Source: an uncultured Flavobacteriaceae bacterium (GTDB lineage: Bacteria; Bacteroidota; Bacteroidia; Flavobacteriales; Flavobacteriaceae). Taken from it: a stretch of DNA of 64,000 nucleotides. Position 1 is the stretch's first letter, and every line of letters starts with the position of its first letter. The stretch covers positions 1 to 64,000 of the forward strand of contig CANMFQ010000014.1 in the NCBI GenBank assembly GCA_947497145.1, given 5' to 3'. Both the position numbers and the translations under genes were made by a program. Shown here piece after piece: positions 7,701 to 61,908 of the stretch. The notes under the pieces were generated by a model. It did no database searches. It was not told the DNA's origin and saw only the letters and a list, made by a program, of their open reading frames with translations.

Positions 7701-8328
7701 GGGCATGCGGTGCACTAAAACTTAATGACAAACAAAAAGGTTTATCACTTGAAGTATGCTCAATAAAATCAAGCGCCTTCTGCCCTGTATATCTTGTTAA
7801 ATGTACGGTATCGTTATTTATGGTTTTGTAGTAATATCCCCTTTTATCATTGTATTTACCATTTCTGTCATATGATTCATACACATCAAATTGTTTGTCC
7901 AATCCATCATACCGAACACCATACTTACCATAAAACCCCGTATAATAACCGTTGTTTTTAAGTAAGGTAGGATACGAATTTGTCATGTACTCTTCTCTTA
8001 TATTCCCTGTTTGAAAATTATAATTGTGCGCACGTTCATACAAACCTGTCAAAATACTAGCTCTACTGGCCGCACAAATAGGAGTGGTTACAATAGCATT
8101 GGAAAAATAAGTGCCCGATTTTGCCAAATTATCCATTTCGGGCGTTTCTACATACTTGTTTCCTGCATAGCCCAGAGCATCAAACCGCTGATCATCAGTT
8201 AAAATAAAAATGATATTGGGTTTGTTTGAGGGTACTGTTTTCTGCTGAGAAAAAACCGTAGTAAAACTGTTAAACACAAAAAATATAAGTACTAAAAAGG
8301 TGCTTTTGTTGGTATCGCTTATTTTCAT
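4786..8328 (-). CDS. Secreted sulfatase fused to GH78 alpha-L-rhamnosidase-like module
   Basis: 1180 residues. After a signal peptide (about 1-27) comes an S1-type sulfatase (about 36-480) with the metal-binding DD at 45-46 and the formylglycine motif CAASR starting at Cys85. A Fn3-like/Bac_rhamnosid_N region follows (about 495-600, with [13 protein letters not shown]), then an (alpha/alpha)6-barrel GH78-type domain. Its DGDRER at 767-772 corresponds to the family's general-acid region, and a C-terminal beta domain ends the protein. It would remove sulfate and then terminal L-rhamnose from an algal oligosaccharide in the periplasm. Bimodular S1-GH78 proteins are known from ulvan loci of marine flavobacteria. 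The gene is monocistronic and divergent from the sensor kinase at 8710. Cys85 needs conversion to formylglycine, which the enzyme at 24809 could perform. Confidence 0.9.
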
Positions 8329-35053: not shown

Positions 35054-35062
35054 AACTGTATT

Positions 35063-46343: not shown

Positions 46344-47687
46344 TTACGCACTTTGCGCTTTGGTCACCTTAAAAGCATACAAACCATAAAAGGCTACAAA
46401 TATCAAACAGATTAAAGGCAAAATAAACGAAAAATGTATTTCTGGTATACCAGCAGCCACTACATCGCCAAAAACTTCTTGTCCGTTTACTTGATCTCCA
46501 TAATCCATTATTTTGGCTTGTAGTTTGGGTAAAAATGCCCCTCCAACAATAGCCATTATTAAACCTGATGAAGCTAATTTTGCCTCCTCACCCATATCTT
46601 TAAGTGCGAGTCCGTAAATAGTAGGAAACATAATGGACATGAACACCGATACCAAGACAAGAAAAATAATACTCATCAAGCCTGATGAAAACATCACCCC
46701 TGCGCACATTAGCGAAGCCGCCAAACCAAAAATAGCGAGCATTTTGGCAGGATTTATTTTTCGCATCATAGCGGTACCTATAAATCTAGTGGTTACAAAT
46801 GATATCATAGCTGCAATATTCCACCAAGTTGCATCTATTCCTAAGTTTGACGATTCATTCAAATATTCTACCAATTGAAAAATAGCTGTCCAGCACATAA
46901 TTTGTGCACCCACGTAGAACATTTGGGCAACAACCCCCAACAGGTAGGTTTTACTTTTAAAAATTCGACTTACCGATTCCTTAATTGATAGATGATCACC
47001 CATAGTCATTGCAGGAATCTTAGTTTTCCATATCACGAAAAAAACCACCGCCACAAAAATGCCCACAGCAATATAAGGTACACTAATTACATTTAGGTCA
47101 AAGGCCTTAATTTCAGCAGCCTTTTCTGCACCTAGTGCTGCAATTTCAGCACTATCAGCATAATCTGTTGAAAGTAGCCTATCTAAAACAATGAATTTTG
47201 CTATTAACATACCTGTTAACGAACCTATAGGATTGAAGGACTGGGCAAGGTTTAAACGACGTGTGGCCGTTACCTTATCCCCCATGGATAAAATTAATGG
47301 GTTTGAGGTGGTTTCTAAAAATCCAAGACCGCAGGTAATTACAAAAAGGGAGATTAAAAAATAGGTATAGGACCCATTCTCTGCCGCAGGGTAGAAAAGA
47401 ATTGCTCCAAGCGCATATAACCCTAAGCCTAGTAACAAGCCCGATTTATAACTGAACTTTCGAATAAAAAGTGCCGCAGGAATAGCCATTACCCCATATC
47501 CAAAATAAAAAGCAAACTGTACATTATAAGCTTCCTCATTTGAAAGTATCATTACCTTTTTAAAGGCAGCAACCATAGGATTGGTTAAATCATTGGCAAA
47601 TCCCCATAGAGCAAAGATGGATGTTGCGGCGATAAAAGGCACCAAAAGTTCTTTGGGCACTACAGGTATTTTCAATGATTTGCTCAT
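46344..47687 (-). CDS. fucP: L-fucose/L-galactose permease-like MFS transporter
   Basis: 447 residues, 12 membrane helices, of the FucP (L-fucose:proton symporter) group of the MFS. Typical features: FALWGFANDLTNPMVAAFKKVM in helix 1, KFSYKSGLLLGLGLYALGA in the 2-4 region, and LETTSNPLILSMGD. FucP of E. coli also carries L-galactose. It is the last gene of the leftward eight-gene operon and should bring the deoxy- or L-galactose substrate into the cytoplasm for the dehydrogenase, lactonase and later enzymes. Substrate assignment is inferred from the neighbours. Confidence 0.85.
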   Translation of the reverse strand: MSKSLKIPVVPKELLVPFIAATSIFALWGFANDLTNPMVAAFKKVMILSNEEAYNVQFAFYFGYGVMAIPAALFIRKFSYKSGLLLGLGLYALGAILFYPAAENGSYTYFLISLFVITCGLGFLETTSNPLILSMGDKVTATRRLNLAQSFNPIGSLTGMLIAKFIVLDRLLSTDYADSAEIAALGAEKAAEIKAFDLNVISVPYIAVGIFVAVVFFVIWKTKIPAMTMGDHLSIKESVSRIFKSKTYLLGVVAQMFYVGAQIMCWTAIFQLVEYLNESSNLGIDATWWNIAAMISFVTTRFIGTAMMRKINPAKMLAIFGLAASLMCAGVMFSSGLMSIIFLVLVSVFMSIMFPTIYGLALKDMGEEAKLASSGLIMAIVGGAFLPKLQAKIMDYGDQVNGQEVFGDVVAAGIPEIHFSFILPLICLIFVAFYGLYAFKVTKAQSA

Positions 47688-47738
47688 AATTTAATTGGCT
47701 TAAAAATTTATTGGATTTATTTGGTATTTGCTTTTGTA

Positions 47739-48530
47739 TTATTCCGTTAAAAGTGATCTATCTAAATGTACATATCCACCATCTACAGTAATAAATTGTC
47801 CGGTAGTGTGCGATGCTCTTTCTGAGATAGTAAACAGGCATGTATCGGCAATTTCTTGCGTAGTGGTCATACGATTTTCAAGGGGTATCTTTTTTATTAT
47901 GGATTTTAATTTTTCTTCTCCGTTTTCTAAGGTTTTTATCCATGTATCATAAGAGGGGGTCCAGCTCTCTGCAATGATAATAGCATTTGAACGAATGCCT
48001 TCCTTTATTAAATCTACAGCCCATTCTCTTGTCAAACCCAATACACCACCCTTGGAAGCAGCGTAACCCGATGTTCTTCCTTGCCCTGTTAAGGCAACCT
48101 TAGAACCTATATTGAGAATATTTCCTTTTGATTTTAGTAAAGCTGGCAAGGCATATTTAACGACCAAAAAGTAACTCACCATATTCAATTTTAACGAGTT
48201 CATGAATTCCTCATAAGATGCATCAAGCCCTACTCCATCATTTACCCCTACATTATTGATAATAGCATCTACCCTTCCATATTTTTCTACAATGGTTTGC
48301 ACTGCGTTTTTTATTTGCTCAGGATCCATAACATCGGTTTTACAGAAAATAGCATCTATTCCATTTGCTTTAATCTTATCTACATAACCATAACCGCGGT
48401 CATTTCTATCAATTACTGCAGGGATTGCCTCTTCAGCTGCTAATGATTGTAAAATGGTATGCCCAATGCTACCCTCTTTACCAGCAGCTCCTGTAATAAT
48501 AACCACTTTTCCTTTTAAACCTAAATCCAT
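47739..48530 (-). CDS. SDR, L-fucose/L-galactose dehydrogenase-like
   Basis: 263 residues, classical short-chain dehydrogenase. The cofactor loop is TGAAGKEGSIG (13-23), and the catalytic residues are Ser143, Tyr156 and Lys160 (GYAASKGG). The segment after the active site (IIIAESWTPSYDTWI) resembles L-fucose dehydrogenases, which oxidise L-fucose and L-galactose at C1 to the lactone. It is followed by the FucP-like permease (51 bases) and preceded by the COG3618 lactonase, giving a sugar to lactone to acid sequence. NAD versus NADP preference cannot be told with confidence. Confidence 0.8.
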   Translation of the reverse strand: MDLGLKGKVVIITGAAGKEGSIGHTILQSLAAEEAIPAVIDRNDRGYGYVDKIKANGIDAIFCKTDVMDPEQIKNAVQTIVEKYGRVDAIINNVGVNDGVGLDASYEEFMNSLKLNMVSYFLVVKYALPALLKSKGNILNIGSKVALTGQGRTSGYAASKGGVLGLTREWAVDLIKEGIRSNAIIIAESWTPSYDTWIKTLENGEEKLKSIIKKIPLENRMTTTQEIADTCLFTISERASHTTGQFITVDGGYVHLDRSLLTE

Positions 48531-48626
48531 TGTATCTATTTTAATTCAACACCACGCTGTTTTATTGCTGTTTAAAACAGGCATACAAACTATGTAAGCT
48601 TCTTTAAACAGCCTTTACACTAGTGC

Positions 48627-49454
48627 TTATAAGTTATAAAAATCTATTGCATTTTTCCCCATCACAGCTTGCTGTTCAGCTGTATTAAGGTTTTGAATAT
48701 AGTCTGTAACTACAGCCTTAACCTGAGCATAATTTCCTGCCACCAAACATACTGGCCAATCAGAACCATACATCATTCTATCAGTACCAAAAACTTCAAA
48801 TACCAAATCTAAATACCGCTGTAATTGCGTTGTTGTCCATGTAGTATACTCTGCTTCAGTAATCATACCTGATGCTTTACAGTATACATTTTCATGCTTT
48901 GCAATTTCTTTCATTAAAACGCTCCATCCATCGTAAAAACCATCTTTAATATAGGGTTTTGCTATATGGTCAATGACAAACTTTTGATTCGGAAATCGTT
49001 TTACAAACTCCAAAGTAGCCCCCAATTGATGTGGAAAAACTAAAATATCATAGGCAGTTTCATACTTTTCTAAAGAAGAAATTCCTTGTAAGAAATCGGG
49101 TCGTAATAAAAAATTATGGTCTGCTTCCTCTTGCACAACATGTCGCCACCCTTTTATTTTCTCCTGCTGATGATATTTTTCAAGCGTACTATCAACGGTA
49201 GGGTCACGCAAATCAACCCAACCGACAACACCTTTAATAAAATCGTTTTCATTAGCAAGGCTTAGAAGAAAATCTGTTTCTGCTAGTGTTTGGTCTGCTT
49301 GAACGGCAACACAACCATCTACGCCATTCTCAGCATAGACCTTTTGTAAATCGGCAGGTAAAAAATCTTTTTTGATAGCTGACATGCTATCATCTATCCA
49401 GGCATGTTTTACAGGGTTGTATTCCCAAAAATGTTGGTGTGAATCAATTGTCAT
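48627..49454 (-). CDS. COG3618 sugar-lactone hydrolase
   Basis: 275 residues, amidohydrolase superfamily, COG3618 group, which includes L-fucono-1,5-lactonase and L-rhamnonate/L-galactonate lactonases. H-x-H metal motif at His6 and His8 (DSHQHFW), with later FVIDHIAKP and RMMYGSDWPVC segments. It should hydrolyse the lactone made by the SDR to L-galactonate (or L-fuconate). Its start overlaps the end of the tagaturonate reductase gene by 11 bases, tight coupling in the operon. Confidence 0.85.
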   Translation of the reverse strand: MTIDSHQHFWEYNPVKHAWIDDSMSAIKKDFLPADLQKVYAENGVDGCVAVQADQTLAETDFLLSLANENDFIKGVVGWVDLRDPTVDSTLEKYHQQEKIKGWRHVVQEEADHNFLLRPDFLQGISSLEKYETAYDILVFPHQLGATLEFVKRFPNQKFVIDHIAKPYIKDGFYDGWSVLMKEIAKHENVYCKASGMITEAEYTTWTTTQLQRYLDLVFEVFGTDRMMYGSDWPVCLVAGNYAQVKAVVTDYIQNLNTAEQQAVMGKNAIDFYNL

Positions 49455-50907
49455 TTTCTGTTATTTTTTTAATAGTTTCCCGTATTCCAATACTTTCAAT
49501 CGAATGAATGTTTTGTGTCAGTTGCTCTACCAGTCCGTTAAACAAAGTAAGGTCAGCACCCCAAATGGTAGTATTACTTAAAACAACACCCACTAAGATA
49601 TCTAATTCCATTTCATTTTTAGCAACTTTTTTCCAATTTGAAGCAAAGAAGTTTATTACCTGCGGACTGTCATTCAATGCAATTCGTTCACCTTCAAAAT
49701 CTCCTTTGTAAAAACGGATAAGTGCCGCAAGCGCAAAAACAATACGCTTAGGCAACTTTCTTTCAGTAAGATAATAATCTTTAAAAGTAGGCAACAAACG
49801 GGTAACAAATTTGCTGGTACTGTTTAATGAAATACTTATTAGTTGATGCTTTAAAAGCGGATTTCTAAATCGGTCTAAAACATCATTTGTAAATTTATTT
49901 AAAACAGCATCAGAAAAAGGTAGAGTCTTACTTATCTCTTCTTTTAAAAGTGATTTAACAAAACCACTTACAACCGTATCATCCATTACTTCCTTTACAA
50001 AACGAATGCCTGCTAAATATCCTACTGGTACCATAGCGGTATGGGCACCATTTAAAATACGGACTTTCATCTCACGATACCTTGCCAAATCATCTACAAA
50101 TTGAACATTCAAAGCCGTTTTAGCAAAAGGCAATTTTGCTTGAATACTAGTATCCCCCTCAATTACCCAACTATGGTAATACTCCCCCGCTACCAGTAGC
50201 TTGTCTTCATAACCTAAATTAGATTGAATTTCTAAGGCGCTATCCGTAGGATATCCAGAAACAATTCTATCTACCAACGTACTGCAAAAATGATTTGCTG
50301 TATATATCCAATGTACAAACTCCTTTCCAAGATGCCATAGCTCGGCATATTTTAAAATAGTATTTTTCAGGGCTACACCGTTATCTTCAATCAATTCACA
50401 AGGCAATAGCACGCATCCTTTTGAAATATCTTTATCAAAATGCAAAAAACGATGGTAAAGCCAGAGGGTTAATTTAGCAGGAAATTCTTTGGGCGGACAA
50501 TCATCAATAGCATCATTTTCATCATATTTGATACCGGCTTCGGTAGTATTGGAAACAATAAATTGAATATCAGGGTTTTTAGCTAATTCTAAATAGGTTT
50601 CCCATGCTGTATAGGGGTTTACAATTTCTTGAATACAATGAACAAGCCTTTTCTCAGCAATCAGTTTTCCATTTTTTATACCGTCTAAAACAACTGTAAA
50701 CAGTCCTTCTTGCTCCTTTAATGCATGGTAATCACCACCTGGCGTAGGTTTAACCACCGCCACACCCCCATTGAAATCGGTTTCATCATTTAATACCTGA
50801 ATCATCCAATCTACAAAGGCACGTAGAAAATTACCTCCTCCAAATTGTAGTACTTTTAAGGGAACTTTTTTGGTTTTGTTTGTGGTTTTTCGGTCTAAAT
50901 TTTTCAT
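49444..50907 (-). CDS. uxaB: Tagaturonate reductase (altronate oxidoreductase)
   Basis: 487 residues, mannitol dehydrogenase superfamily. N-terminal LQFGGGNFLRAFVDWM, then NTTEAGIKYD and KVRILNGAHTAMVPVGYL typical of UxaB. It reduces D-tagaturonate to D-altronate with NADH. No uronate isomerase (UxaC) is encoded beside it. Instead the neighbouring Zn-ADH could make tagaturonate from L-galactonate, and the altronate dehydratase six bases upstream takes the product. Start ATG 50907 follows the altronate dehydratase stop directly. Confidence 0.92.
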   Translation of the reverse strand: MKNLDRKTTNKTKKVPLKVLQFGGGNFLRAFVDWMIQVLNDETDFNGGVAVVKPTPGGDYHALKEQEGLFTVVLDGIKNGKLIAEKRLVHCIQEIVNPYTAWETYLELAKNPDIQFIVSNTTEAGIKYDENDAIDDCPPKEFPAKLTLWLYHRFLHFDKDISKGCVLLPCELIEDNGVALKNTILKYAELWHLGKEFVHWIYTANHFCSTLVDRIVSGYPTDSALEIQSNLGYEDKLLVAGEYYHSWVIEGDTSIQAKLPFAKTALNVQFVDDLARYREMKVRILNGAHTAMVPVGYLAGIRFVKEVMDDTVVSGFVKSLLKEEISKTLPFSDAVLNKFTNDVLDRFRNPLLKHQLISISLNSTSKFVTRLLPTFKDYYLTERKLPKRIVFALAALIRFYKGDFEGERIALNDSPQVINFFASNWKKVAKNEMELDILVGVVLSNTTIWGADLTLFNGLVEQLTQNIHSIESIGIRETIKKITENDN

Positions 50908-50913
50908 AAATAG

Positions 50914-52566
50914 CTATAAAGAAATACCTCGTTTCCAAGGAATAAAATCATCTTGCGCCAAGCGAACAGAGGCGGTAAGAGCTTCTCCACTTGCTACGGC
51001 AATTATATATTCTAACAATGCTTCACCCTTAGAAGCAATGGTATCTTCTCCTGTGATAATAGTACCTGTATTAAAATCAATAATATCACTCATTTTCTCT
51101 GTTAGTGCTGTATTACTAGACACCTTAATTACAGGCGCTACTGGGTTTCCTGTTGGCGTACCCAAACCGGTTGTAAAAGCGATTACATTACAGCCTGACC
51201 CCGCAAGCCCCGTAGTACTTTCAACATCATTACCGGGCGTACATAACAGGTTTAGCCCTTTTTTTGTGCATTTCTCCGTGTAATCCAAAACATCGGTAAT
51301 TACCGAAGTACCTCCTTTTTTTGCCGCTCCTGCCGATTTCATCGCATCTGTAATTAAACCATCTTTAATATTTCCTGGGGATGGATTATTTTTAAACCCT
51401 GACCCCAAGGCAACCGCTCTGGCGGCATAGGTATCCATAAGATGTGTAAATTTCTTTTTATTTTCTTCAGATGCACATCGATTAATGAGTTCTTGCTCTA
51501 CGCCATTCAGTTCAGGAAACTCTGATAATACTGTTGTTGCGCCTAAAGCAACCAACAAATCAGAAGTATACCCCAAAGTAGGGTTTGCCGAAATACCCGA
51601 AAACCCATCTGAACCACCGCATTCTAATCCCAAGGTTAAATGCTGTAAAGATGCTGGTTTTCGCTCAATTTTATTTGCCTCAATAAGGCCTAAAAAGGTC
51701 TTTTTTACAGCCTCAGCAATAAAATGACGTTCACTTTTACTTTTTTGTTGTTCTAAAACATGTAGCGGTTTAGAAAAATTTGCATCACGCTCATGAATAC
51801 TACTCAAGAGGTTTTTAACCTCAGCATTTTGGCAACCCAAACTTAAAATTGTAGCTCCAGCAACATTAGCATTCGTAATGTACCCCGCTAATAGACTTGT
51901 TAAGGTTTCAGAATCTAAACGAAAACCACCACAGCCACCATCATGTGTTAAAAACTTAATGCCATCAACATTGGCGAAGGTTCTATTTTGCTTAATTTCT
52001 TCAGGTGTGCGGATGATTTCGGTATTCATTATATCAGCAGCAGAAGCTCCATTTTGGTACTGGTTTACCAAACTATCAGTATCTACAATAAAGTCTATTG
52101 TGGTATGATATCCTAATGATTCTTGTAATGCCGATTTTAATACTTCTACATTACGGTTCTCACAAAAAACCATGGGAATAACAAGCCAATAATTTGCTGT
52201 ACCCACACTACCATCTGCTCTATGATAGCCATTAAAAGTTCGGTTTTTCCATTTACTAACATCAGGAGCTTGCCAGGTATATTTTTCACCACCCACCCCG
52301 TAATTTGCAGAGGCATGAACACAGTTTTCTATTGAAATACGCGCTCCTTTAGCAATATTTTTGATTGCTTTTCCAACCAAAACACCGTACATAATCACTT
52401 CATCGCCTGCTTTAAAATCATGCAAGGCAAATTTATGCTTAGCAGCAATAGGTTCTACAGCACTAAAAGAATCAGTCTCCGTAGTGATTACATCACCACT
52501 TTCAATATCTTGAAGCGCTGCTAAAATATTGTCATTAGGGTGGATTTTAAGGAATTTCTGCTTCAT
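50914..52566 (-). CDS. uxaA: Altronate dehydratase
   Basis: 550 residues. N-terminal SAF domain (about 1-95, HPNDNILAALQDIESGDVI) and a large UxaA/GarD dehydratase domain (about 105-545) with the conserved FLTHDGGCGG, LGLECGGSDGFSGI and LLCTPGNDVESTTGLAGSGCN. It dehydrates D-altronate to 2-keto-3-deoxy-D-gluconate, an iron-dependent reaction. It is located between uxaB and the KDPG aldolase gene with gaps of six and seven bases. Confidence 0.93.
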   Translation of the reverse strand: MKQKFLKIHPNDNILAALQDIESGDVITTETDSFSAVEPIAAKHKFALHDFKAGDEVIMYGVLVGKAIKNIAKGARISIENCVHASANYGVGGEKYTWQAPDVSKWKNRTFNGYHRADGSVGTANYWLVIPMVFCENRNVEVLKSALQESLGYHTTIDFIVDTDSLVNQYQNGASAADIMNTEIIRTPEEIKQNRTFANVDGIKFLTHDGGCGGFRLDSETLTSLLAGYITNANVAGATILSLGCQNAEVKNLLSSIHERDANFSKPLHVLEQQKSKSERHFIAEAVKKTFLGLIEANKIERKPASLQHLTLGLECGGSDGFSGISANPTLGYTSDLLVALGATTVLSEFPELNGVEQELINRCASEENKKKFTHLMDTYAARAVALGSGFKNNPSPGNIKDGLITDAMKSAGAAKKGGTSVITDVLDYTEKCTKKGLNLLCTPGNDVESTTGLAGSGCNVIAFTTGLGTPTGNPVAPVIKVSSNTALTEKMSDIIDFNTGTIITGEDTIASKGEALLEYIIAVASGEALTASVRLAQDDFIPWKRGISL

Positions 52567-52573
52567 AAGTGAA

Positions 52574-53242
52574 CTACTTCCGCAACTTTTTAATCAAGCT
52601 CAACGCCTCTTTTACTTTAGTTTCTAAACCTTTAAAATCTTTATTAGCTAAAATATCCTTACTAATTAATTGCGACCCCATACCCACACAAGTTACACCA
52701 GCATCAAACCATGCTTTTAAATTTTCTTCATTAGGTGCAACGCCACCTGTTGGCATTATACTCGTCCACGGTTGCGGACCTTTTATCCCTTTTACAAATT
52801 TAGGGCCGTAAATATCACCTGGAAAAAGTTTTACTATTTCGCACCCCAATTCTTCTGCTTTGGCTATTTCTGTCAAAGACCCGCAGCCAGGTGACCACAA
52901 TACTTTTCGTCGGTTACAAGCAATAGCAATATCTTCTCGCAATACAGGAGTGACTACAAAATTAGCTCCTAAAAGCATATAGGTAGATGCTGCTCCGGCA
53001 TCGGTTATTGAACCCACTCCTAAAATCATACCTGGTAATTCGGCAATGGCATATTTGTTTAGTTCGCCAAATATTTCGTGAGCAAAATCACCCCTTGAGG
53101 TAAATTCTAGTAAACGTGCTCCGCCATCATAGCAGGCTTTTAACACTTTTTTACCTAACTCAATATCTGAATGAAAAAACAATGGAATCATTCCCGTTTC
53201 CTTCATTACAGATGCAACTTCAATTCTTGTATATTGTGCCAT
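52574..53242 (-). CDS. eda: KDPG/KHG aldolase
   Basis: 222 residues, class I aldolase TIM barrel. Schiff-base Lys138 in CEIVKLFPGD and Glu46 in LLEFTSR correspond to E. coli Eda Lys133 and Glu45. It cleaves 2-keto-3-deoxy-6-phosphogluconate to pyruvate and glyceraldehyde-3-phosphate, and some homologues also accept the galactonate epimer. It lies between KDG kinase and altronate dehydratase. Confidence 0.93.
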   Translation of the reverse strand: MAQYTRIEVASVMKETGMIPLFFHSDIELGKKVLKACYDGGARLLEFTSRGDFAHEIFGELNKYAIAELPGMILGVGSITDAGAASTYMLLGANFVVTPVLREDIAIACNRRKVLWSPGCGSLTEIAKAEELGCEIVKLFPGDIYGPKFVKGIKGPQPWTSIMPTGGVAPNEENLKAWFDAGVTCVGMGSQLISKDILANKDFKGLETKVKEALSLIKKLRK

Positions 53243-53320
53243 AAAATATCAATATATTATTGTTCTGGTGTCTCTACTATCACATAAAGACACCAGACTA
53301 TTTAATTCGTTATTACTTTT

Positions 53321-54361
53321 TTAACGAGCTACTCTACCAGAGGCATCACCGCTCATTAATTTTTCTACTTCTGCTACGGTAACCAAATTAGCATCTCCTT
53401 TAATGGTATGTTTTAAACAAGAAGCTGCCACGGCAAAATTCAATGCATTCTGGGTATCTTCTGGGTACGTTAGTAATCCATAAATTAAGCCACCCATAAA
53501 AGAATCTCCACCACCTACTCTATCAACGATATCAGTAATTTGATACTGCGGCGATTGGTACATTTGTTTGCCATCATATAAAACACCAGCCCATGTATTA
53601 TGAGAAGCTGAAATTGAACCTCTTAAGGTTGTAATTACCTTTTGCGCCTTTGGAAACTTCTGCATCATCTGCTTACAAACCGATAAAAAAGCTTCTGCGG
53701 TAACATCATGCCCCTGTGTTGTAATATCAAGCCCTTCTGGTTTGATTCCAAAGTGTTTTTCTGCATCTTCTTCATTACCCAAAATAACATCGCAATATGA
53801 GGTCAACTCGGTCATAATGCCTTCTGGCTCTACGCCGTATTTCCACAATTTTGCACGGTAATTTAAATCTGTTGAAATGGTTATTCCCAAATCACTAGCC
53901 GCCTTTACAGCTTCTAAACAAACATCAGCAGCAGCCTGAGAAATAGCTGGCGTTATCCCCGTCCAATGAAACCAACCAGCACCATCAAATACCTTTTCCC
54001 AATCTATCATTCCTGTTTTTATTTCAGAAATAGCAGAATGTGCACGGTCATACACCACCTTACTCCCACGAGATACAGCACCTGTTTCTAGAAAATAAAT
54101 CCCTAAACGGTCACCTCCAAAAATAATATTATCCGTATTTACACCACGCTTTCGCATTTCCATTAAGGCACATTGCCCTATATCGTTATTAGGTAAACGG
54201 GTAACAAAATCTACAGGAATACCATAATTGGCTAAAGATACCGCTACGTTTGATTCACCACCACCGTAAACCACATCAAAAGAGGTTGCTTGAGAGAATC
54301 TTAAAAATCCCGGAGGAGCTAAACGAAGCATAATCTCTCCGAAAGTTACTACTTTTTTCAT
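53321..54361 (-). CDS. kdgK: 2-keto-3-deoxygluconate kinase
   Basis: 346 residues from ATG 54361, which gives the family start (M)KKVVTFGEIMLRLAPPG. A longer reading from 54424 overlaps the upstream gene and adds a foreign tail. PfkB/ribokinase fold: substrate-binding GGGESNVAVSLA and the ATP/anion-hole motif VGGGDSFMGGLIYGL. It phosphorylates KDG at C6 to KDPG. It follows the Zn-ADH (14 bases) and precedes eda. Confidence 0.9.
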   Translation of the reverse strand: MKKVVTFGEIMLRLAPPGFLRFSQATSFDVVYGGGESNVAVSLANYGIPVDFVTRLPNNDIGQCALMEMRKRGVNTDNIIFGGDRLGIYFLETGAVSRGSKVVYDRAHSAISEIKTGMIDWEKVFDGAGWFHWTGITPAISQAAADVCLEAVKAASDLGITISTDLNYRAKLWKYGVEPEGIMTELTSYCDVILGNEEDAEKHFGIKPEGLDITTQGHDVTAEAFLSVCKQMMQKFPKAQKVITTLRGSISASHNTWAGVLYDGKQMYQSPQYQITDIVDRVGGGDSFMGGLIYGLLTYPEDTQNALNFAVAASCLKHTIKGDANLVTVAEVEKLMSGDASGRVAR

Positions 54362-54375
54362 ATTACTAAAATGTA

Positions 54376-55389
54376 TTAAAAATTTATTGTTGCTTTTATT
54401 ACTCCTGTAGCTGGATTTACCCAACTATCAAAATTTGCTATCATTGCTGTATAATCGACCGTATGGGTAATGAAAGAGTCTACAGGAAATTCACCTTTTT
54501 CCAGCACTGAAATTACATATTTAAAATCAGCTACAGTAGCATTTCTACTACACATTATAGTTGTTTCTTTTGCATGAATCGCAGGGTGCGTAAACGTTAA
54601 TTCTCCTTTTGACAAACCTACTAAAACATACCGTCCGCCATGTGACATATAATCTGGTCCCGATTCTAAAGCTCCTTTATGCCCTGTAGCATCAAAAACA
54701 GCTGCTGCCATATCACCATTGGTAAGGACATTAATTTCATCTACAGTATTAGCACCCGCCAAAACTACATGATTAACCCCTATTTTATCTTTTGCATAAT
54801 TGAGTCGGTCTTGATTTACATCTATGGCGATAATTGTAGCACCTGCTAGTTGCGCTAACTTCATAATACCAATACCGATGGGGCCGCAACCTATTACCAC
54901 AATTGTCTCTCCTTGCTGTAAGCCTGCACGCCTAATAGCGTGTGCACCAATAGCTAGCGGCTCAACTATAGCCATTTGATTGTGTGTGAGATTTTTTGCA
55001 GGAATCAATATATCAACAGGAACAGTAATTTTCTCTTGCATACCGCCATCTGTATGAATACCCAACACTTGAATGCTTGTACAGCAATTGGTTTTACATT
55101 TTTTACACGCAACACAATTATTGCAGCTTAAATACGGCATCACAACAACATGGTCACCTGCTTGTATACCAGCTTCATTACTATCTATTTCTTCAACTAC
55201 GGTTGCCAATTCATGCCCCAAAATTCTGGGGTACGTAAAAAAAGGTTGATTACCAGCATAGGCATGTAAATCGGTGCCGCAAACACCAACTTTAGTCACT
55301 TTCAATAAAGCCTCTCCTGTTTTTCTTTTTGGTGCTTCCTTTTCCTTTAAAACAAATTCTCCCGGCTTTTCACAAACAATGTATTTCAT
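54376..55389 (-). CDS. Zinc alcohol dehydrogenase, candidate L-galactonate dehydrogenase
   Basis: 337 residues, medium-chain dehydrogenase. Catalytic zinc ligands Cys37, His59 and Glu60 (GHELATV); structural zinc Cys89, Cys92, Cys95 and Cys103; NAD motif VVIGCGPIGIGIMKLA. It is the first gene of the eight-gene operon. E. coli LgoD (YjjN), a similar enzyme, oxidises L-galactonate at C5 to D-tagaturonate. Placement with a lactonase upstream of that step and uxaB downstream supports the same reaction here. RspB-like or sorbitol-dehydrogenase specificity cannot be excluded. Confidence 0.75.
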   Translation of the reverse strand: MKYIVCEKPGEFVLKEKEAPKRKTGEALLKVTKVGVCGTDLHAYAGNQPFFTYPRILGHELATVVEEIDSNEAGIQAGDHVVVMPYLSCNNCVACKKCKTNCCTSIQVLGIHTDGGMQEKITVPVDILIPAKNLTHNQMAIVEPLAIGAHAIRRAGLQQGETIVVIGCGPIGIGIMKLAQLAGATIIAIDVNQDRLNYAKDKIGVNHVVLAGANTVDEINVLTNGDMAAAVFDATGHKGALESGPDYMSHGGRYVLVGLSKGELTFTHPAIHAKETTIMCSRNATVADFKYVISVLEKGEFPVDSFITHTVDYTAMIANFDSWVNPATGVIKATINF

Positions 55390-55688
55390 GTAGTCTTTAT
55401 TTTTTTACTTAGCGCCTAATCAACAACACCCAAGTAGTAAATCTACTTCTGTTTCTGACCAACACTACGCATTAGTTTCAGATATACCTGATTTTTAACT
55501 AGTGCATGCCAATCGCTATGCTGAATTGCTTCAATCACATTTGAAGTCAAAAGTAAATGAACCCAAAAGGAAAAGCTACCACAAATCATCCAATTTACGA
55601 TACTATATTTGCCCAATACAATTATTTAATTCTAAATTAGCTTTTAAAATGTTAGATTGCAATCAAATTTAATCATAAACTATACCTA
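55390..55688. other. Divergent intergenic region, catabolic operon / AraC regulator
   Basis: About 300 bases with no gene. It carries the promoters for the leftward L-galactose-type operon and the rightward AraC gene. A short TAAATTAG sequence near 55640 is shared with the operator candidate at 31571 but is too short to rely on. Confidence 0.5.
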
Positions 55689-56558
55689 TTGAAATTACAT
55701 CTACTTCATAGAGAAAACCCTGAAAACAGTTCTTTTATGGTCACGCATCATGTAGAACCTTTCTTTTTAAAAGTATGGCATTACCACCCCGAATTAGAAC
55801 TGGTTTTAACCATAAAAAGTTCGGGCACCCGTTTTGTTGGTGATAGCATAAAAAAGTTTGAGGCTGGTGATGTTGTTTTAATTGGAAAGAATTTACCGCA
55901 TATGTGGCTTAATGATGATGCCTATTTTCAAAAAAACAATGCACTAGTTGCAGAAGATATTGCCATTCATTTTAATAAGGATTTTTTAGGGCCTGATTTT
56001 TTAAAAGTAAATGAAATGAAAGCCATATCAAACTTGTTATATCAGTCAAGATATGGCATCAAATTTTGTAACCCTAGCAAAAAAATAAGCAAAGGAATTT
56101 TAAAAATTAATGCCTTAAAACCGAGTATAGAGCGAACACTAAAATTCATTAAAGTATTACATCACTTGTCTAAACATACAGATTACGAGCTTTTGGTTAG
56201 CGAAGGTTTTGTAAATACCTTCAAACAAAATCAAAATGAAAGTTTAGACCGAACCTATGAGTTTATTTTTGAAAATTTTGCTAAGCCCATTACGCTAAAA
56301 GATGTTGCTGAAATTGCTAAAATGAATCCGTCGGCTTTTAGTCGTTTTTTTAAAAGAGTAAATCGCAAAACTTTTTCAAAATACCTTAATGAACTTCGCA
56401 TAGGGTACGCGTGCAAATTACTGATAGAAAACAAAAGTAAGATAGCCACTATTTGTTACGAATGTGGCTATAATAATATTTCAAATTTCAATCGGCAGTT
56501 TAGAGCTATAAAACAAATGTCTCCCTCAGAATATTTAGAGCAGCAGCGAAGTAAGTAG
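55689..56558 (+). CDS. AraC-family regulator of the sugar operon (TTG start)
   Basis: 289 residues. A cupin-type N-terminal domain (FFLKVWHYHPELELVLTIKSSGTRFVGDS) is followed by two HTH motifs (TLKDVAEIAKMNPSAFSRFFKRV and IATICYECGYNNISNFNRQFRAI). The start is TTG; the first ATG (55737) would lose 16 residues that align with the N-terminus of the paralogue at 57564, so TTG is preferred. It is divergent from the eight-gene operon and very probably its activator. Ligand likely a pathway sugar or acid. Confidence 0.88.
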   Translation: MKLHLLHRENPENSSFMVTHHVEPFFLKVWHYHPELELVLTIKSSGTRFVGDSIKKFEAGDVVLIGKNLPHMWLNDDAYFQKNNALVAEDIAIHFNKDFLGPDFLKVNEMKAISNLLYQSRYGIKFCNPSKKISKGILKINALKPSIERTLKFIKVLHHLSKHTDYELLVSEGFVNTFKQNQNESLDRTYEFIFENFAKPITLKDVAEIAKMNPSAFSRFFKRVNRKTFSKYLNELRIGYACKLLIENKSKIATICYECGYNNISNFNRQFRAIKQMSPSEYLEQQRSK

Positions 56559-56703: not shown

Positions 56704-57564
56704 TTAAGAGAACACCCGCTGATACTTTTTTTGATATACTAAAGGAGAGCAACCAATAAACTTTTTAAACTGTCTATAAAAAAAAGGCAAACTCTCATAA
56801 CCACATAAAAAGGCAATTTCAGAAACCTGTTTTTGCGTTTCAATAAGCTCCTTACAGGCCAATTTCACTTTATATTCATTTAAAAAAGTAAAAAAGGACT
56901 TATTAAAAGTACGCTTAAAAAATCTGCAAAAAGTTTCTTCACTCATCCCTACAAGCTTTGCAACCTCTGTTAGTGTTAGCTGTCGGTGGTAATTAGCACT
57001 CACATAATTTTGAATTAAATCTATTTTTGCTGTGGACCCCTGATTTAAAGTAACGCTAAAATTATCACCAGAAAGCAATTCATATTCCTTTTCATTTGCT
57101 AGTCTTTGCAATAATTGTAAGAACGCGATGATTTTCTCAAAAGGAGGTAAATCTAACATCCGCTGTAATTCTGGAAGAACCTCATCAGTTGTTGCAGTAA
57201 AAAAACGTATTCCTCTAGAAGCATTTTTCAGTAGCTTGCGTATGGCAATGAACTCCGTTTTAGCTAACCACCCCTCACCTAAAACATCCGTATGCCATTG
57301 CACCACAATAGATTCTGCCTCCTCCTTTTGATGTTCTGTATTCTTCCAACAATGCGGTAAGTTACTACCCAATAATACCAAATCTCCCTTTTCAAATTCC
57401 ATCACACTATCACCTACATAGCGCATGCCTGTACTCTTCAAAATACAGGTAAGCTCAAACTCAGGGTGGAAATGCCAAGGGGCATCAAATTTTTTATCCT
57501 GAAAATGAAAAGCACTAAATGAGCCTTGTGCAGGGCGTAATATTTTTTCTAATTGTGGTTTCAA
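56704..57564 (-). CDS. AraC-family regulator, paralogue
   Basis: 286 residues, same architecture and clear similarity to 55689-56558 (WHFHPEFELTCILKSTGMRYVGDSVMEFEKGDLVLLG versus the paralogue's cupin). Two HTH motifs are present (LTEVAKLVGMSEETFCRFFKRTF and VSEIAFLCGYESLPFFYRQFKKF). It is divergent from the ADH-esterase genes beginning at 57729, so it probably controls them. The paralogous pair sits back to back between the two halves of the sugar cluster. Confidence 0.88.
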   Translation of the reverse strand: MKPQLEKILRPAQGSFSAFHFQDKKFDAPWHFHPEFELTCILKSTGMRYVGDSVMEFEKGDLVLLGSNLPHCWKNTEHQKEEAESIVVQWHTDVLGEGWLAKTEFIAIRKLLKNASRGIRFFTATTDEVLPELQRMLDLPPFEKIIAFLQLLQRLANEKEYELLSGDNFSVTLNQGSTAKIDLIQNYVSANYHRQLTLTEVAKLVGMSEETFCRFFKRTFNKSFFTFLNEYKVKLACKELIETQKQVSEIAFLCGYESLPFFYRQFKKFIGCSPLVYQKKYQRVFS

Positions 57565-57651: not shown

Positions 57652-57728
57652 GTTTATTTAGGCTAAACTAATTGGGAAAAAAAATCCTAGATTTCGAACA
57701 AAATGTAACGCTAACAAACCACTTATAT

Positions 57729-58853
57729 ATGTCAATAACTTGCCAAGCCGCAATTGCAACAGGAAAAGGAAATTTTAGTATTGATACCATCGAGGTTCAA
57801 AACCCGCTAGCTGATGAAGTACTGGTGGCCGTAAAAGCCGCTGGCCTTTGCCATACCGACCATGACTCGCTACACTGGGGCAAACCTATTGTTATGGGGC
57901 ATGAAGGGGCGGGTATTGTTAAAGCCATAGGGAAAGATGTACATCATGTTAGTATTGGTGATTCAGTAATATTGAATTGGGCTACCCCTTGTGGTACTTG
58001 TTTGCAGTGTAATTTAGGTAACCAACATATCTGCGAAAATAACTCTCCCGTGGTTGCTGGTGGCAATGGGTATACTAATGGTCATGCTCATTTAGATGGC
58101 ACTCTATGGAACAAAAAGCCTATTGAACGCTCATTTAATATAGGTACACTTTCAGAATATACTTTGGTAAAAGCTTCTGCTGTGGTAAAAAACAACGCCA
58201 AAACAATGCCCTATCCATCGGCTAGTATTATTAGTTGTGGTGTGATGACTGGGTATGGCTCTGTTGTAAATTCTGCAAAAGTAAAACAAGATAGTTCTGT
58301 GGTTGTTCTAGGTACTGGAGGAGTTGGCTTAAGTGTTATTCAAGGAGCTAGAGTTAACAGAGCTGCAAAAATTATAGCTATTGATATTAATGAAAAGCGT
58401 TTAGAAATGGCTAAAACATTTGGTGCTACGCATCTTATAAAGGCAGACAAAGCAGATAAAGGCCTATTGGCTGCTGCTGAAAAAGTAAAAACACTTACCG
58501 ACGGAAGAGGTGCTGACTATGCCTTTGAATGCACTGCTGTTCCTGAACTGGGGGCTGCCCCTTTGGCCATGATACGCAATGCAGGAACAGCTGTACAAGT
58601 AAGCGGAATAGAACAGGAGATAACCATAGACATGAATCTCTTTGAATGGGACAAAATATACATAAACCCACTTTACGGAGGTTGTAATCCGCAAACTGAT
58701 TTTCCTAAAATCATTTCCCATTATCAATCAGGAGAACTCAAATTAGATGAAATGATTACCAAAACCTATGCCTTACATGAACTGCAAAATGCTTTTGACG
58801 ATATGCTATCAGGAAAAAATGCAAAAGGTGTTATTGTATTTGATACATTATAA
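57729..58853 (+). CDS. Zinc alcohol dehydrogenase, class III / formaldehyde-dehydrogenase-like
   Basis: 374 residues from ATG 57729 (MSITCQAAIA). Catalytic zinc ligands in GLCHTDHDS and MGHEGAGIV, structural zinc CGTCLQCNLGNQHIC, NAD motif VVLGTGGVGLSVIQG. Size and layout fit class III ADH (S-hydroxymethyl-thiol dehydrogenase). It is three bases upstream of an esterase similar to S-formylglutathione hydrolase, the pairing used for formaldehyde removal. Whether this organism uses glutathione or another thiol is not visible. An ordinary sugar or alcohol substrate is also possible. Confidence 0.75.
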   Translation: MSITCQAAIATGKGNFSIDTIEVQNPLADEVLVAVKAAGLCHTDHDSLHWGKPIVMGHEGAGIVKAIGKDVHHVSIGDSVILNWATPCGTCLQCNLGNQHICENNSPVVAGGNGYTNGHAHLDGTLWNKKPIERSFNIGTLSEYTLVKASAVVKNNAKTMPYPSASIISCGVMTGYGSVVNSAKVKQDSSVVVLGTGGVGLSVIQGARVNRAAKIIAIDINEKRLEMAKTFGATHLIKADKADKGLLAAAEKVKTLTDGRGADYAFECTAVPELGAAPLAMIRNAGTAVQVSGIEQEITIDMNLFEWDKIYINPLYGGCNPQTDFPKIISHYQSGELKLDEMITKTYALHELQNAFDDMLSGKNAKGVIVFDTL

Positions 58854-58855
58854 TT

Positions 58856-59647
58856 ATGTTTAGAACTACTGAAATATCCAATCCAGCATTTGAAAGTAAT
58901 CACCTGAGATTTATAACCATTAAGAGTGAAAACCTCAAAGGCCGGGGCGACATTTGTGTTTTTGTACCGCCAAACACCAATTTAAAAGATGTTCCCATCG
59001 TTATTTTACTTCATGGCGTATATGGCAGTGCTTGGGTTTGGTCACAAAAAGCAGGTGTTCATCTAACCGCCTTAAAAATGATAGAAAATGGTGAACTAGC
59101 ACCTATGGTAATTGCCATGCCTTCCGATGGGTTATGGGGTGATGGCTCTGGATATCTTGCTCACAATAACAGGGATTTTGAAAAATGGATTGTAGATGAT
59201 GTTCCCCAAGCTCTGTTTGAAAACATATCATTGGTAAGTAAAAAATCTAGTTTGTTTATTTCAGGACTTTCAATGGGCGGTTTTGGTGCTTTGCGTATTG
59301 GCATAAAATATGGTAATCACTTTAAAGCCATATCAGCACATTCTGCAATTACTGACATTGAACAGATGCCCTTATTTGTAGCGGAAGACGTAGCCCATTA
59401 TACACAAGAAGACCCTAGTGAAAATTCAGTTTGGGGCGTACTACAAAAACATAAAACCACACTCCCTAAAATCCGCTTTGATTGCGGTACAGAAGACACC
59501 CTAATTACCTACAACCGCACATTGCATCAACAGCTAAAAAAAGCAACTATTCCCCATGAATATGAAGAATTTAAGGGAGCTCATGAATGGATATATTGGC
59601 AAGAACATATTAAAGATAGTCTACGGTTTTTTGACAAAAATCGCTAA
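58856..59647 (+). CDS. Alpha/beta-hydrolase esterase (PF00756, esterase-D-like)
   Basis: 263 residues, putative esterase fold. LLHGVYGSAWVW oxyanion loop, nucleophile in GLSMGGFGALRIG, Asp/His in the last third (CGTEDTLITYN, GAHEWIYW). Similar proteins are S-formylglutathione hydrolases or feruloyl/acetyl esterases of the FrmB/EstD type. No signal peptide, so cytoplasmic. Co-transcribed with the ADH three bases upstream. Substrate not assignable from sequence. Confidence 0.75.
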   Translation: MFRTTEISNPAFESNHLRFITIKSENLKGRGDICVFVPPNTNLKDVPIVILLHGVYGSAWVWSQKAGVHLTALKMIENGELAPMVIAMPSDGLWGDGSGYLAHNNRDFEKWIVDDVPQALFENISLVSKKSSLFISGLSMGGFGALRIGIKYGNHFKAISAHSAITDIEQMPLFVAEDVAHYTQEDPSENSVWGVLQKHKTTLPKIRFDCGTEDTLITYNRTLHQQLKKATIPHEYEEFKGAHEWIYWQEHIKDSLRFFDKNR

Positions 59648-59649
59648 TT

Positions 59650-59709
59650 AACACCCTATTTTAAAACAAAAACTACACTAAAATAAAAAATTAATCAAAA
59701 TAGGGTATT
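59650..59709. promoter_or_regulatory. Candidate operator, inverted pair
   Basis: AACACCCTATTTT (59650-59662) and AAAATAGGGTATT (59697-59709) are inverted with one mismatch, in the 184-bp gap before the PhyH gene. The arrangement (two inverted half-sites some 35-45 bases apart) parallels the pair at 31535-31581. Possible AraC target. Confidence 0.35.
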
Positions 59710-59831
59710 ATTTAAACAATATTGATGAAAAGTAAAAAACGTTCAAAACTTATTTTTGTCACACATAACCAAGCTTATGTATTAAGCCTTATCAAATAGT
59801 CTTATTATATAACCTCTTAATATATTCAATT

Positions 59832-60719
59832 ATGGCAGCAGTAGTAGACTTAGCAGATAAACACCAACTTGTATCTGATATTTTCAAACTTCCAAAAAGT
59901 ACAGAAGAATGGGAACAGTATCGTTTAACGGACGAACAAGTAGCCCACTTTCATGAATATGGTTACCTCTCAGGAATAAAGTTATTAGATGATACACAAA
60001 TAGCCATTTTACGTAAAGAGTTGGCCGAGATTAGAGACCCAAAACATCCGGCTCATGAGTTGTTTTATGAGTTTCATAGTAATGAGTCTGAAGACCCAAA
60101 TTCTGTATTGTTTCACTCACTTGGGCACTGGCGCATTACCAATGGTTTTCATGATGTTTTGTGGAATCCTGCATTTGTTATGGCGGCGCATCAATTATTA
60201 GAAAACAAACCCGTACGTTTTTGGCATGACCAATTATTTTGTAAACCTGCTAAACACGGCGGTGTAGTAGCTTGGCATCAAGATTATTCGTACTGGACAA
60301 GAACTATAGCCATGCAACACCTTACCTGTTGGACAGGATTGGATGATGCTACCACCAAAAATGGCTGTTTGCACTATATCCCCAAGAGTCATAAATGGGG
60401 CCTTTTAGATGCGCCTTCTTTGGCAGGTGATATGAACGGTTTGATGAATTATTTATCTGAAGAGCAAAAAGAAATGTTTAAAAACCCTGTAGCTATAGAA
60501 CTCAAAAAAGGCTATGCTAGTTTTCATCATCCACTCATGGTACATGGTTCTTATGAAAATAAATCCGAAATAAGCCGTAGAGCCTTTGTGCTTAATGTTT
60601 TTGCTGATGGTACGGTTAGTAATACAGACGATGAATTACTACGTGGCGTACCCCCTATTGCCAAAGGAAATAAAATGGAAGGCAAATTTTTTCCACTATT
60701 ATTTGATCGTGTTCAATAA
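59832..60719 (+). CDS. PhyH-type Fe(II)/2-oxoglutarate dioxygenase
   Basis: 295 residues. The iron facial triad is visible: His149 and Asp151 (WHQDYSYW) and His238 (LMVHGSYEN), with Arg250 (SRRAF) as 2-oxoglutarate ligand. Family members hydroxylate or demethylate diverse small molecules and sugars. It precedes the galactonate dehydratase by 31 bases, so the substrate is probably a galactose-derived sugar or substituent. Combined with an upstream ADH-esterase pair, oxidative O-demethylation releasing formaldehyde is one attractive but untested reading. Confidence 0.85.
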   Translation: MAAVVDLADKHQLVSDIFKLPKSTEEWEQYRLTDEQVAHFHEYGYLSGIKLLDDTQIAILRKELAEIRDPKHPAHELFYEFHSNESEDPNSVLFHSLGHWRITNGFHDVLWNPAFVMAAHQLLENKPVRFWHDQLFCKPAKHGGVVAWHQDYSYWTRTIAMQHLTCWTGLDDATTKNGCLHYIPKSHKWGLLDAPSLAGDMNGLMNYLSEEQKEMFKNPVAIELKKGYASFHHPLMVHGSYENKSEISRRAFVLNVFADGTVSNTDDELLRGVPPIAKGNKMEGKFFPLLFDRVQ

Positions 60720-60750
60720 ATTGTAGTAGATTTCTGGAAACAATTGCAAG

Positions 60751-61908
60751 GTGAAATCACTCATAATTGAAAACATAACACTTTATAAAGTACCTCCACG
60801 GTGGCTATTTTTAAAAATAACCACTAAAGAAGGTATTATTGGCTGGGGAGAGCCTGTAGTTGAAGGAAAAGCAGCTACAGTTGAAGCCTGCGTGAAAGAA
60901 TTGCAACACTACATTATTGGCAAATCTGCCAACAATATAGAAGATATTTGGCAGGTTTTATACCGTGGCGGATTTTACCGTGGAGGCCCTATTTTAATGA
61001 GTGCATTATCTGGTATTGACCAAGCCTTATGGGATATTAAAGGAAAAGCATTAGGCGTACCTGTTTATGAACTTTTAGGTGGAGCTGTGCGTCATAAAAT
61101 GAAAATGTACTGTTGGATTGGTGGTGACAATCCTGATGTTGTTCTTGAACAAGCTCATGAAAAAGCAAAACAAGGCTACCAAGCAGTAAAAATGAATGCG
61201 ACTGGAGGAATGGATTGGATTTCTTCTTTAAAAGACATTAAACAGGTTGCCAACAACATTAAATTATTACGCGAAACATTTGGAAACGACCTTGATATTG
61301 GCTTAGACTTTCATGGTCGTATTCATAAAGGAATGGTCAAAAGGCTTATTGACGAAGTTGCTCCATATCATCCCATGTTTATAGAAGAACCTGTTTTGAG
61401 CGAAAATAATGACGCTTTAGAACACATTTACAGCTATACCAGCATCCCAATTGCAACAGGAGAACGGTTATTTTCTCGCTGGGATTTTAAAACTATTTTA
61501 CACCGTGGTCTTGTTGATATCATTCAGCCAGACCTTAGTCACGCTGGTGGAATTTCAGAAGTGAGGCGTATTGCTGCTATGGCTGAGGCTTATGACGTAG
61601 CAATTGCTCCCCATTGCCCACTAGGTCCTATTTCTTTGGCGGCTGCACTACAGGTAGATTTTGTATCGGCAAATGCTTGTATTCAAGAAAGTAGCTTAGG
61701 TATTCATTACAATCAAGGTTTTGACCTACTTGATTATGTTTCAAACCCTGAAGATTTTGATGTTAAAGACGGCTATGTTCACCTTTTTAAAAAACCAGGT
61801 CTTGGGGTTGAAATTAATGAAGAAAAACTAAAAGAAGCCCATAAAATAGGTCACAACTGGTCAAACCCCATTTGGCGTGGCAAAGATGGTAATTTTACAG
61901 AATGGTAA
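60751..61908 (+). CDS. dgoD: D-galactonate dehydratase
   Basis: 385 residues with a GTG start. Mandelate-racemase branch of the enolase superfamily and close to E. coli DgoD along its length: PPRWLFLKI, GGFYRGGPILMSALSGIDQALWDIKGKALGVP, FGLDFHGR (here IGLDFHGR), MFIEEPVL, TGERLFSRWDFK, PHCPLGPISLAAALQ and the terminal GDG/EW tail. It dehydrates D-galactonate to 2-keto-3-deoxy-D-galactonate. No DgoK or DgoA is adjacent, so the KDG kinase and KDPG aldolase at 52.6-54.4 kb may handle the product. Confidence 0.92.
   Translation: MKSLIIENITLYKVPPRWLFLKITTKEGIIGWGEPVVEGKAATVEACVKELQHYIIGKSANNIEDIWQVLYRGGFYRGGPILMSALSGIDQALWDIKGKALGVPVYELLGGAVRHKMKMYCWIGGDNPDVVLEQAHEKAKQGYQAVKMNATGGMDWISSLKDIKQVANNIKLLRETFGNDLDIGLDFHGRIHKGMVKRLIDEVAPYHPMFIEEPVLSENNDALEHIYSYTSIPIATGERLFSRWDFKTILHRGLVDIIQPDLSHAGGISEVRRIAAMAEAYDVAIAPHCPLGPISLAAALQVDFVSANACIQESSLGIHYNQGFDLLDYVSNPEDFDVKDGYVHLFKKPGLGVEINEEKLKEAHKIGHNWSNPIWRGKDGNFTEW

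Follow-up and report, generated by a model that had tools for sequence, protein, structure and literature searches.

L-Galactose occurs in red-algal galactans and in rhamnogalacturonan II (RG-II) of pectin, and few bacterial routes for its use have been described. One of these, in Phocaeicola (Bacteroides) vulgatus, was reportedly described by Hobbs in 2014; it is said to be encoded by Bvu0219-0222, to include a COG3618 lactonase and to leave the later steps to the uronate pathway. For another, encoded by the lguABCDEF genes of Luteolibacter sp. LG18, the pathway was tested by enzyme assay and gene disruption (PMC12632266). BVU_0219, the first enzyme of the P. vulgatus pathway, clusters with the plant L-galactose dehydrogenase GALDH (PMC12632266) and is therefore not a short-chain dehydrogenase/reductase (SDR). 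Here, we describe an operon at positions 46344-55389 of a 64,000-nucleotide stretch of DNA from an uncultured Flavobacteriaceae bacterium (the window), which, on comparison with related loci, is likely to encode both the uptake and the complete oxidative catabolism of L-galactose.

The operon comprises eight consecutive open reading frames (ORFs), all on the minus strand, which are transcribed in the order Zn-dependent alcohol dehydrogenase (Zn-ADH), 2-keto-3-deoxygluconate (KDG) kinase, 2-keto-3-deoxy-6-phosphogluconate (KDPG) aldolase (Eda), UxaA, UxaB, lactonase, SDR and the permease FucP. An earlier note on this DNA had listed these eight genes and their families, and was borne out on both counts, with all eight ORFs at their assigned places and the named families found by the scans. 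In the proposed pathway, FucP would import L-galactose, the SDR would oxidise C1 to give L-galactono-1,5-lactone, and the COG3618-type enzyme would open the lactone to L-galactonate. The LgoD-like Zn-ADH would then oxidise C5 of L-galactonate to yield D-tagaturonate, UxaB would reduce C5 again, now in the opposite configuration, to give D-altronate, UxaA would dehydrate this product to KDG, and the kinase and aldolase would convert KDG to pyruvate and glyceraldehyde 3-phosphate. L-Galactonate, L-fuconate and D-altronate share C2-C4, and L-galactonate and D-altronate are C5 epimers, so that the Zn-ADH and UxaB would together constitute a two-step inversion of C5; L-fuconate is without the C6 hydroxyl that KDG kinase needs. 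We infer every substrate in this scheme, as well as the effector and the action of the divergent regulator AraC1, the observations themselves being of gene content, gene order, families, co-occurrence and operator sequence.

The operon is not a chance assembly, because a contig from another uncultured Flavobacteriaceae bacterium (locus L086) carries the same genes in identical order from the Zn-ADH to the SDR, at 68-86% identity, before the contig stops. At that locus the operon is adjoined by the gene for the AraC-family regulator AraC1 (74% identical to that of the window) and by a PhyH gene (86%). A protein that looks SMP-30-like lies there as well, within L086:922-2904 together with the PhyH gene.

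The front end would, from its sequence alone, be called a set of L-fucose enzymes, a reading that is altered by the wider locus survey given below. The permease scores 467.5 bits against TIGR00885 (cut-off 280.4) and is 34% identical to E. coli FucP, while the SDR scores 356 bits against the L-fucose dehydrogenase model NF052481 (cut-off 300) and matches PDB entry 4gkb (E 7.9e-74). The lactonase, which we take to belong to COG3618, is above the cut-off for Pfam Amidohydro_2, reaches 271.9 bits with the fuconolactonase model NF052480 (under its cut-off of 400) and matches PDB entry 4dlf (E 2.4e-50). In the genome, the SDR and the lactonase are the single matches at E 1e-50 (8 of 27 first-look candidates scored) and E 1e-30, respectively. 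No mutarotase gene is present in the operon, to which the search for one was confined.

The tail combines all four families expected for the conversion of tagaturonate, with UxaA and the kinase assigned by Pfam only and the substrates again inferred. UxaB (653.6 bits against NF002969, cut-off 359) and Eda (380.3 bits against NF005499, cut-off 275) are above their thresholds; UxaA is identified by its Pfam GD_AH domains, with no NCBIfam model above cut-off. For the kinase, the listed TTG start at 54424 overlaps the Zn-ADH gene, and the ATG at 54361 gives a protein of 346 residues (the family scans were run on 53321-54355, two residues short of this start); it is 86% identical to the L086 copy. 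The best NCBIfam model for the Zn-ADH, PRK10083, is matched at 196.3 bits, under its cut-off of 376, and the protein is 39% identical to E. coli LgoD versus 33% to RspB (7 of 10 Zn-ADH candidates in the genome were scored). A second Eda, on contig C10, accounts for the other of two PF01081 matches in the genome.

Evidence for L-galactose comes from the locus survey, in which an alignment of 16 lactonase rows led to 80 named loci, the best 80 of 579 confirmed stretches. Two main layouts were seen, both having the lactonase and, mostly, the SDR, FucP and mutarotase in common. To these, fucose-type (F) loci add a second SDR (SDR2) and a FAH hydrolase, often with a UxaA-family or enolase-family dehydratase, whereas in galactose-type (G) loci the addition is UxaB, in most cases together with Zn-ADH and UxaA; loci with a close Zn-ADH but without UxaB were termed Z. 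The 80 loci divide into 46 F, 7 G, 4 Z, 1 mixed (L098) and 22 untyped. A fucose tail (FAH or SDR2 at no less than 45% identity) accompanies UxaB in 0 of 7 loci, compared with 47 of the 73 others (Fisher p = 1.3e-3), or 49 of 73 if any SDR2 match is counted (p = 8e-4), and if only the 49 loci no shorter than 20.8 kb are taken the figures are 0/4 and 33/45 (p = 9e-3); these p values are a guide only, as the loci are related, the genomes are not independent and many loci are short. Furthermore, the Zn-ADH (at least 60% identity) is present in 6 of the 7 UxaB loci. A mutarotase gene follows FucP in six G-type loci (L030, L089, L092, L096, L097 and L102). The window, L086 and a Persicobacter locus (L217) are those in which kinase and aldolase both belong to the cluster; in the stretches examined, the other G-type loci lack a kinase and have, for the aldolase, no more than a weak match (L096, 36%). 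Seonamhaeicola algicola and Aquimarina sp. RZ0 are named carriers of the G-type set. LacI-type genes, instead of AraC1, apparently adjoin the cluster in L089 and L090 (read by eye).

The trees, which were built from rows above an identity floor and with 80% query coverage (SDR, 73/74; UxaA, 32/33; Zn-ADH, 29/31), also favour L-galactose. All 8 G-type SDR rows fall in one clade of 19 rows, with none among the other 54. The window's Zn-ADH belongs to a clade of 13 rows that includes all 8 G-type rows, LgoD being a long branch, and relatives at 43-51% identity, partly from F-type loci, form a separate clade. In the UxaA tree, one side (12 rows) includes the 7 G and the 2 Persicobacter rows, and 22 of the 24 rows on the other side are F rows, so that the G-type proteins are separate from the F-type ones with the exception of L091.

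A replacement of the first enzyme points in the same direction. On a plasmid of Persicobacter sp. JZB09 (CP012861.1; L217), genes for the lactonase, an aldo-keto reductase (AKR), Zn-ADH, FucP, mutarotase, UxaA, UxaB, two kinases (69% and 50% identical to that of the window) and Eda lie consecutively, the SDR of the window thus filling the position held there by the AKR. Characterised L-galactose dehydrogenases are of the AKR class, and 5 of the 9 PDB matches of the L217 protein carry the name L-galactose dehydrogenase, with E values from 1e-17 to 4e-12. The P. psychrovividus plasmid pPP8 carries the lactonase, Zn-ADH, FucP, mutarotase, UxaA and UxaB followed by an alpha-L-fucosidase, with a 72% identical AKR elsewhere on the plasmid, and in a Chloroflexota locus (L130) the lactonase and Zn-ADH adjoin a weak AKR match (25%). 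As for the SDR itself, L-fucose dehydrogenases of this class accept L-galactose too, the mammalian one less well than L-fucose (PMC11293516, PMC10746189). A further SDR relative, spread over two reading frames, was seen on the plasmid pSD15 of an agar-degrading Microscilla (L216:12001-12770) near a beta-agarase, sulfatases and genes resembling those of anhydrogalactose catabolism; this stretch gave no UxaA, UxaB or lactonase match.

The control region links the operon to L-fucose clusters. The 299-bp gap upstream of the operon shares a 46-bp stretch with the region upstream of an enolase-family gene on contig C3 of the same genome, and L086 has the same stretch with identical spacing. The derived pattern, GGCAAANANAGTAT-N18-TGGTAG, was searched for in 218 sequences (the window plus 217 loci, some of them overlapping; 2.78 Mb in all) and gave 12 matches with at most two mismatches, every one beside an AraC1 orthologue and one of them a duplicate of the window's. 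It was found with no more than two mismatches at 9 of the 10 AraC1 orthologues of at least 50% identity and with no more than three at all 10, the pattern having been derived from 3 of these loci, and at 0 of 22 rows for more distant AraC genes (below 50% identity; three rows duplicate genes) with up to three mismatches. A chance origin was considered and rejected, as three mononucleotide shuffles returned no match with up to two mismatches and six with three. Of the 10 AraC1 sites, 7 are in F-type or mixed clusters, 1 is at the genome's own fucose-type tail and 2 are at G-type operons; the predicted 38-bp operator is thus shared with L-fucose clusters, one of them in this genome, and AraC1 is 53% identical to the regulator of that tail. 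AraC1 probably acts from the predicted site, and the operon is apparently an L-fucose gene cluster that acquired new downstream genes and retained its control site.

The genome's own fucose-type tail consists of an FAH protein (63% identity), an enolase-family protein, an LldD-like protein and an AraC regulator on contig C3, with SDR2 (64%) on C2. The best NCBIfam match of the FAH protein is a rhamnonate-type hydrolase model, under cut-off, and the enolase-family protein has no NCBIfam model above cut-off, so that ‘fucose' is used here on the strength of likeness to F-type loci. No dehydrogenase or lactonase belonging to this cluster was found in the genome at the E-value limits given above, and the permease, SDR and lactonase of the operon may therefore serve both sugars. 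A two-tailed regulon under one AraC operator can be envisaged, tentatively and at somewhat less than an even chance, in which these three genes are shared for L-fucose and L-galactose, the operon contributes the L-galactonate tail and other contigs contribute the L-fuconate tail; the operon would then be an L-fucose cluster with an exchanged tail, in which an L-fucose-type SDR displaced an AKR.

Several observations weigh against an assignment to L-galactose. NCBIfam names the SDR an L-fucose dehydrogenase, and the 19-row SDR clade includes 6 F rows and is hence not specific to one sugar. The L217 AKR is below every NCBIfam cut-off, and its best PDB match is generically named. The mixed locus L098 combines Zn-ADH and UxaA with SDR2 and FAH, and some sets are partial: L087, L104 and L107 show no SDR (the L087 contig begins just upstream of the Zn-ADH), L030 has no lactonase, and L090, L100 and L104 have no UxaA or UxaB in the stretch examined. 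UxaA shares 31% identity with its E. coli namesake but 52-64% with the dehydratases found at F-type and mixed loci. Finally, the genome carries, at C4:244094-245476, a gene for UxaC (52% identity to the E. coli enzyme), which leaves room for galacturonate use. Read by eye, no recognisable uronate genes lie alongside this gene (L026:10080-11486).

One alternative is a composite operon, in which L-fucose would be the sole sugar handled by the permease, SDR and lactonase, and UxaB, UxaA, kinase and aldolase would act on D-galacturonate with the isomerase supplied from elsewhere. The L-fucose family names of the SDR and lactonase fit this, as does a genome with UxaC on C4 and a single match each to PF08125 (UxaB) and PF20629 (UxaA), both in the operon, so that D-galacturonate may use these two enzymes too; the fucose-type tail encoded on different contigs, for which the searches found no further SDR or lactonase, and the untyped locus L120, where UxaC lies ca. 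9 kb from lactonase and SDR, are likewise in keeping with it. However, a composite operon gives no role to the Zn-ADH, which nevertheless accompanies UxaB in nearly all of its loci; UxaC is absent from 9 G-type sequences and two Persicobacter loci within the stretches examined, and the AKR replacement fits L-galactose. A D-galacturonate (UxaCAB) operon would include the uronate isomerase, which here lies on another contig. Of the features of an oxidative L-fucose cluster, the operon has an SDR of the L-fucose dehydrogenase family (NF052481), and SDR2 and the FAH hydrolase are absent from the ORFs of the operon and its flanks. We regard the composite reading as unlikely.

The same sugar might also be processed in another order, with the UxaA-family enzyme acting first to give 2-keto-3-deoxy-L-galactonate and the Zn-ADH and UxaB then inverting C5 to yield KDG, as in 3,6-anhydro-L-galactose catabolism, where the route passes through the same intermediate (PMC5943477). 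The affinity of UxaA to presumed L-fuconate dehydratases rather than to the E. coli protein agrees with this order, as L-fuconate and L-galactonate have C2-C5 in common, and an unpublished L-galactonate dehydratase of the UxaA/GarD superfamily has been cited (PMC6336799). On the other side, UxaB is far above the tagaturonate reductase cut-off, the assayed Luteolibacter enzymes favoured tagaturonate and altronate (PMC12632266) and G-type UxaAs, L091 excepted, are separate from F-type ones, which makes the alternative order quite improbable. Another sugar of similar configuration, either D-arabinose, which SDR relatives oxidise (PMC11293516, PMC10746189), or L-glucose, which the Luteolibacter pathway also takes (PMC12632266), is very improbable indeed, as a pentose is incompatible with the hexonate route and L-glucose requires a C4 epimerase (LguG), none of which is in the operon, the only part of the genome considered for an epimerase.

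Oxidative catabolism of L-galactose thus remains the preferred reading, and the chain that the earlier note had drawn, from L-galactose through L-galactonate, tagaturonate, altronate and KDG to KDPG, gains from the gene-order swaps, the trees and the dehydrogenase replacement. Two of the arguments offered for it fail: a uronate isomerase is indeed absent from the operon but exists on C4, and the suggested porphyran source found no link. The two sulfatases said to lie nearby are real, but they are 16-20 kb away (25991-27562 and 29084-30592). The L-fucose connection, evident in the SDR and lactonase family names, the shared operator and the fucose-type tail elsewhere, had been overlooked.

Concerning carbohydrate sources, PF18206 has no match in the genome, although control genomes were equally silent and absence is not shown by this result; the two GH16 genes are in clusters that look laminarin-type by eye (neighbours not scanned), and porphyran was set aside as a source. 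GH29 or GH95 domains occur in L089, L090, L096, L097 and L102, in proteins picked by eye and with no F-type locus scanned as a control. A search for an approximate GH29/GH95-like motif in the window and eight further stretches of this genome, together a minor part of it, gave no match.

Table 1. Positions of the operon genes, the predicted operator and its regulator in the window.
Feature	Position	Strand	Basis
Zn-dependent alcohol dehydrogenase, proposed L-galactonate 5-dehydrogenase (LgoD-like)	54376..55389	-	Family scans, identity to LgoD, tree
KDG kinase (PfkB family)	53321..54361	-	Pfam PfkB
KDPG aldolase (Eda)	52574..53242	-	NF005499 above cut-off
UxaA/GarD-superfamily dehydratase, proposed D-altronate dehydratase	50914..52566	-	Pfam GD_AH domains, tree
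UxaB, tagaturonate reductase	49444..50907	-	NF002969 above cut-off
COG3618-type lactonase, proposed L-galactono-1,5-lactonase	48627..49454	-	Amidohydro_2, PDB 4dlf
SDR aldose 1-dehydrogenase, L-fucose dehydrogenase family, proposed L-galactose oxidiser	47739..48530	-	NF052481, PDB 4gkb, tree
FucP-family permease	46344..47687	-	TIGR00885 above cut-off
Predicted AraC-type operator GGCAAANANAGTAT-N18-TGGTAG, reading towards the operon	55576..55613	-	Pattern shared with AraC1 orthologue loci
AraC-family regulator AraC1, divergently transcribed, with the operator as its predicted target	55689..56558	+	Pfam HTH_18

Beyond AraC1, a second AraC gene (AraC2, 56704-57564) adjoins a set at 57672-61908 that comprises a class III-like alcohol dehydrogenase (ADH), an esterase with a weak S-formylglutathione hydrolase match, a PhyH dioxygenase and a D-galactonate dehydratase (55% identical to E. 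coli DgoD). AraC2, PhyH, ADH and esterase are found together again in locus L189, and the set could be one for oxidative methyl-group removal with clearance of formaldehyde. Elsewhere in the window, a single ORF at 4786-8328 fuses a sulfatase with a GH78-type alpha-L-rhamnosidase, a PSCyt/DUF1549/DUF1553 protein is encoded beside a DUF1501 protein at 31724-36586, adjoined by two sulfatases and a Gfo/Idh gene, and a secreted-looking protein of 1529 residues with many near-identical repeats is encoded at 37133-41722.

Automatic names such as ‘L-fucose dehydrogenase' and ‘fuconolactonase' may mask another sugar, and the locus offers a self-contained operon that has counterparts in named strains. 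It also adds a second enzyme class to the candidate L-galactose dehydrogenases and supplies a DNA motif for finding such regulons. In a literature search outside of which most subscription journals fell, no earlier bacterial SDR L-galactose dehydrogenase or Flavobacteriaceae L-galactose operon was recognised.

Compared by description rather than by sequence, P. vulgatus Bvu0219-0222 differs from the operon in its GALDH-like first enzyme, in place of the window's SDR. The Luteolibacter lguABCDEF cluster, also compared by description, similarly unites a dehydrogenase, L-galactonate dehydrogenase, tagaturonate reductase, altronate dehydratase and KDPG aldolase, but its LguA clusters with GALDH and BVU_0219, its active KDG kinase (LguH) is encoded outside the cluster, L-glucose is used as well, and the gene list in the figure legend includes no lactonase or permease; its authors report that they found no organism in which lguG was missing while the six other orthologues were present (PMC12632266). 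The Persicobacter sp. JZB09 cluster, whose record (CP012861.1) is without annotation, has the enzyme set of the operon including kinase and aldolase, but with an AKR in place of the SDR and an additional mutarotase and second kinase. The oxidative L-fucose clusters of Bacteroidota (F-type; the Burkholderia multivorans pathway) share the SDR, lactonase, FucP and, in part, the AraC regulator and operator, often with a mutarotase, whereas their tail consists of a dehydratase, SDR2 and FAH hydrolase rather than Zn-ADH, UxaB, UxaA, kinase and aldolase. Relative to these systems, what is new in the operon is a self-contained variant of a known pathway, with an SDR as the proposed first enzyme and a predicted fucose-type operator.

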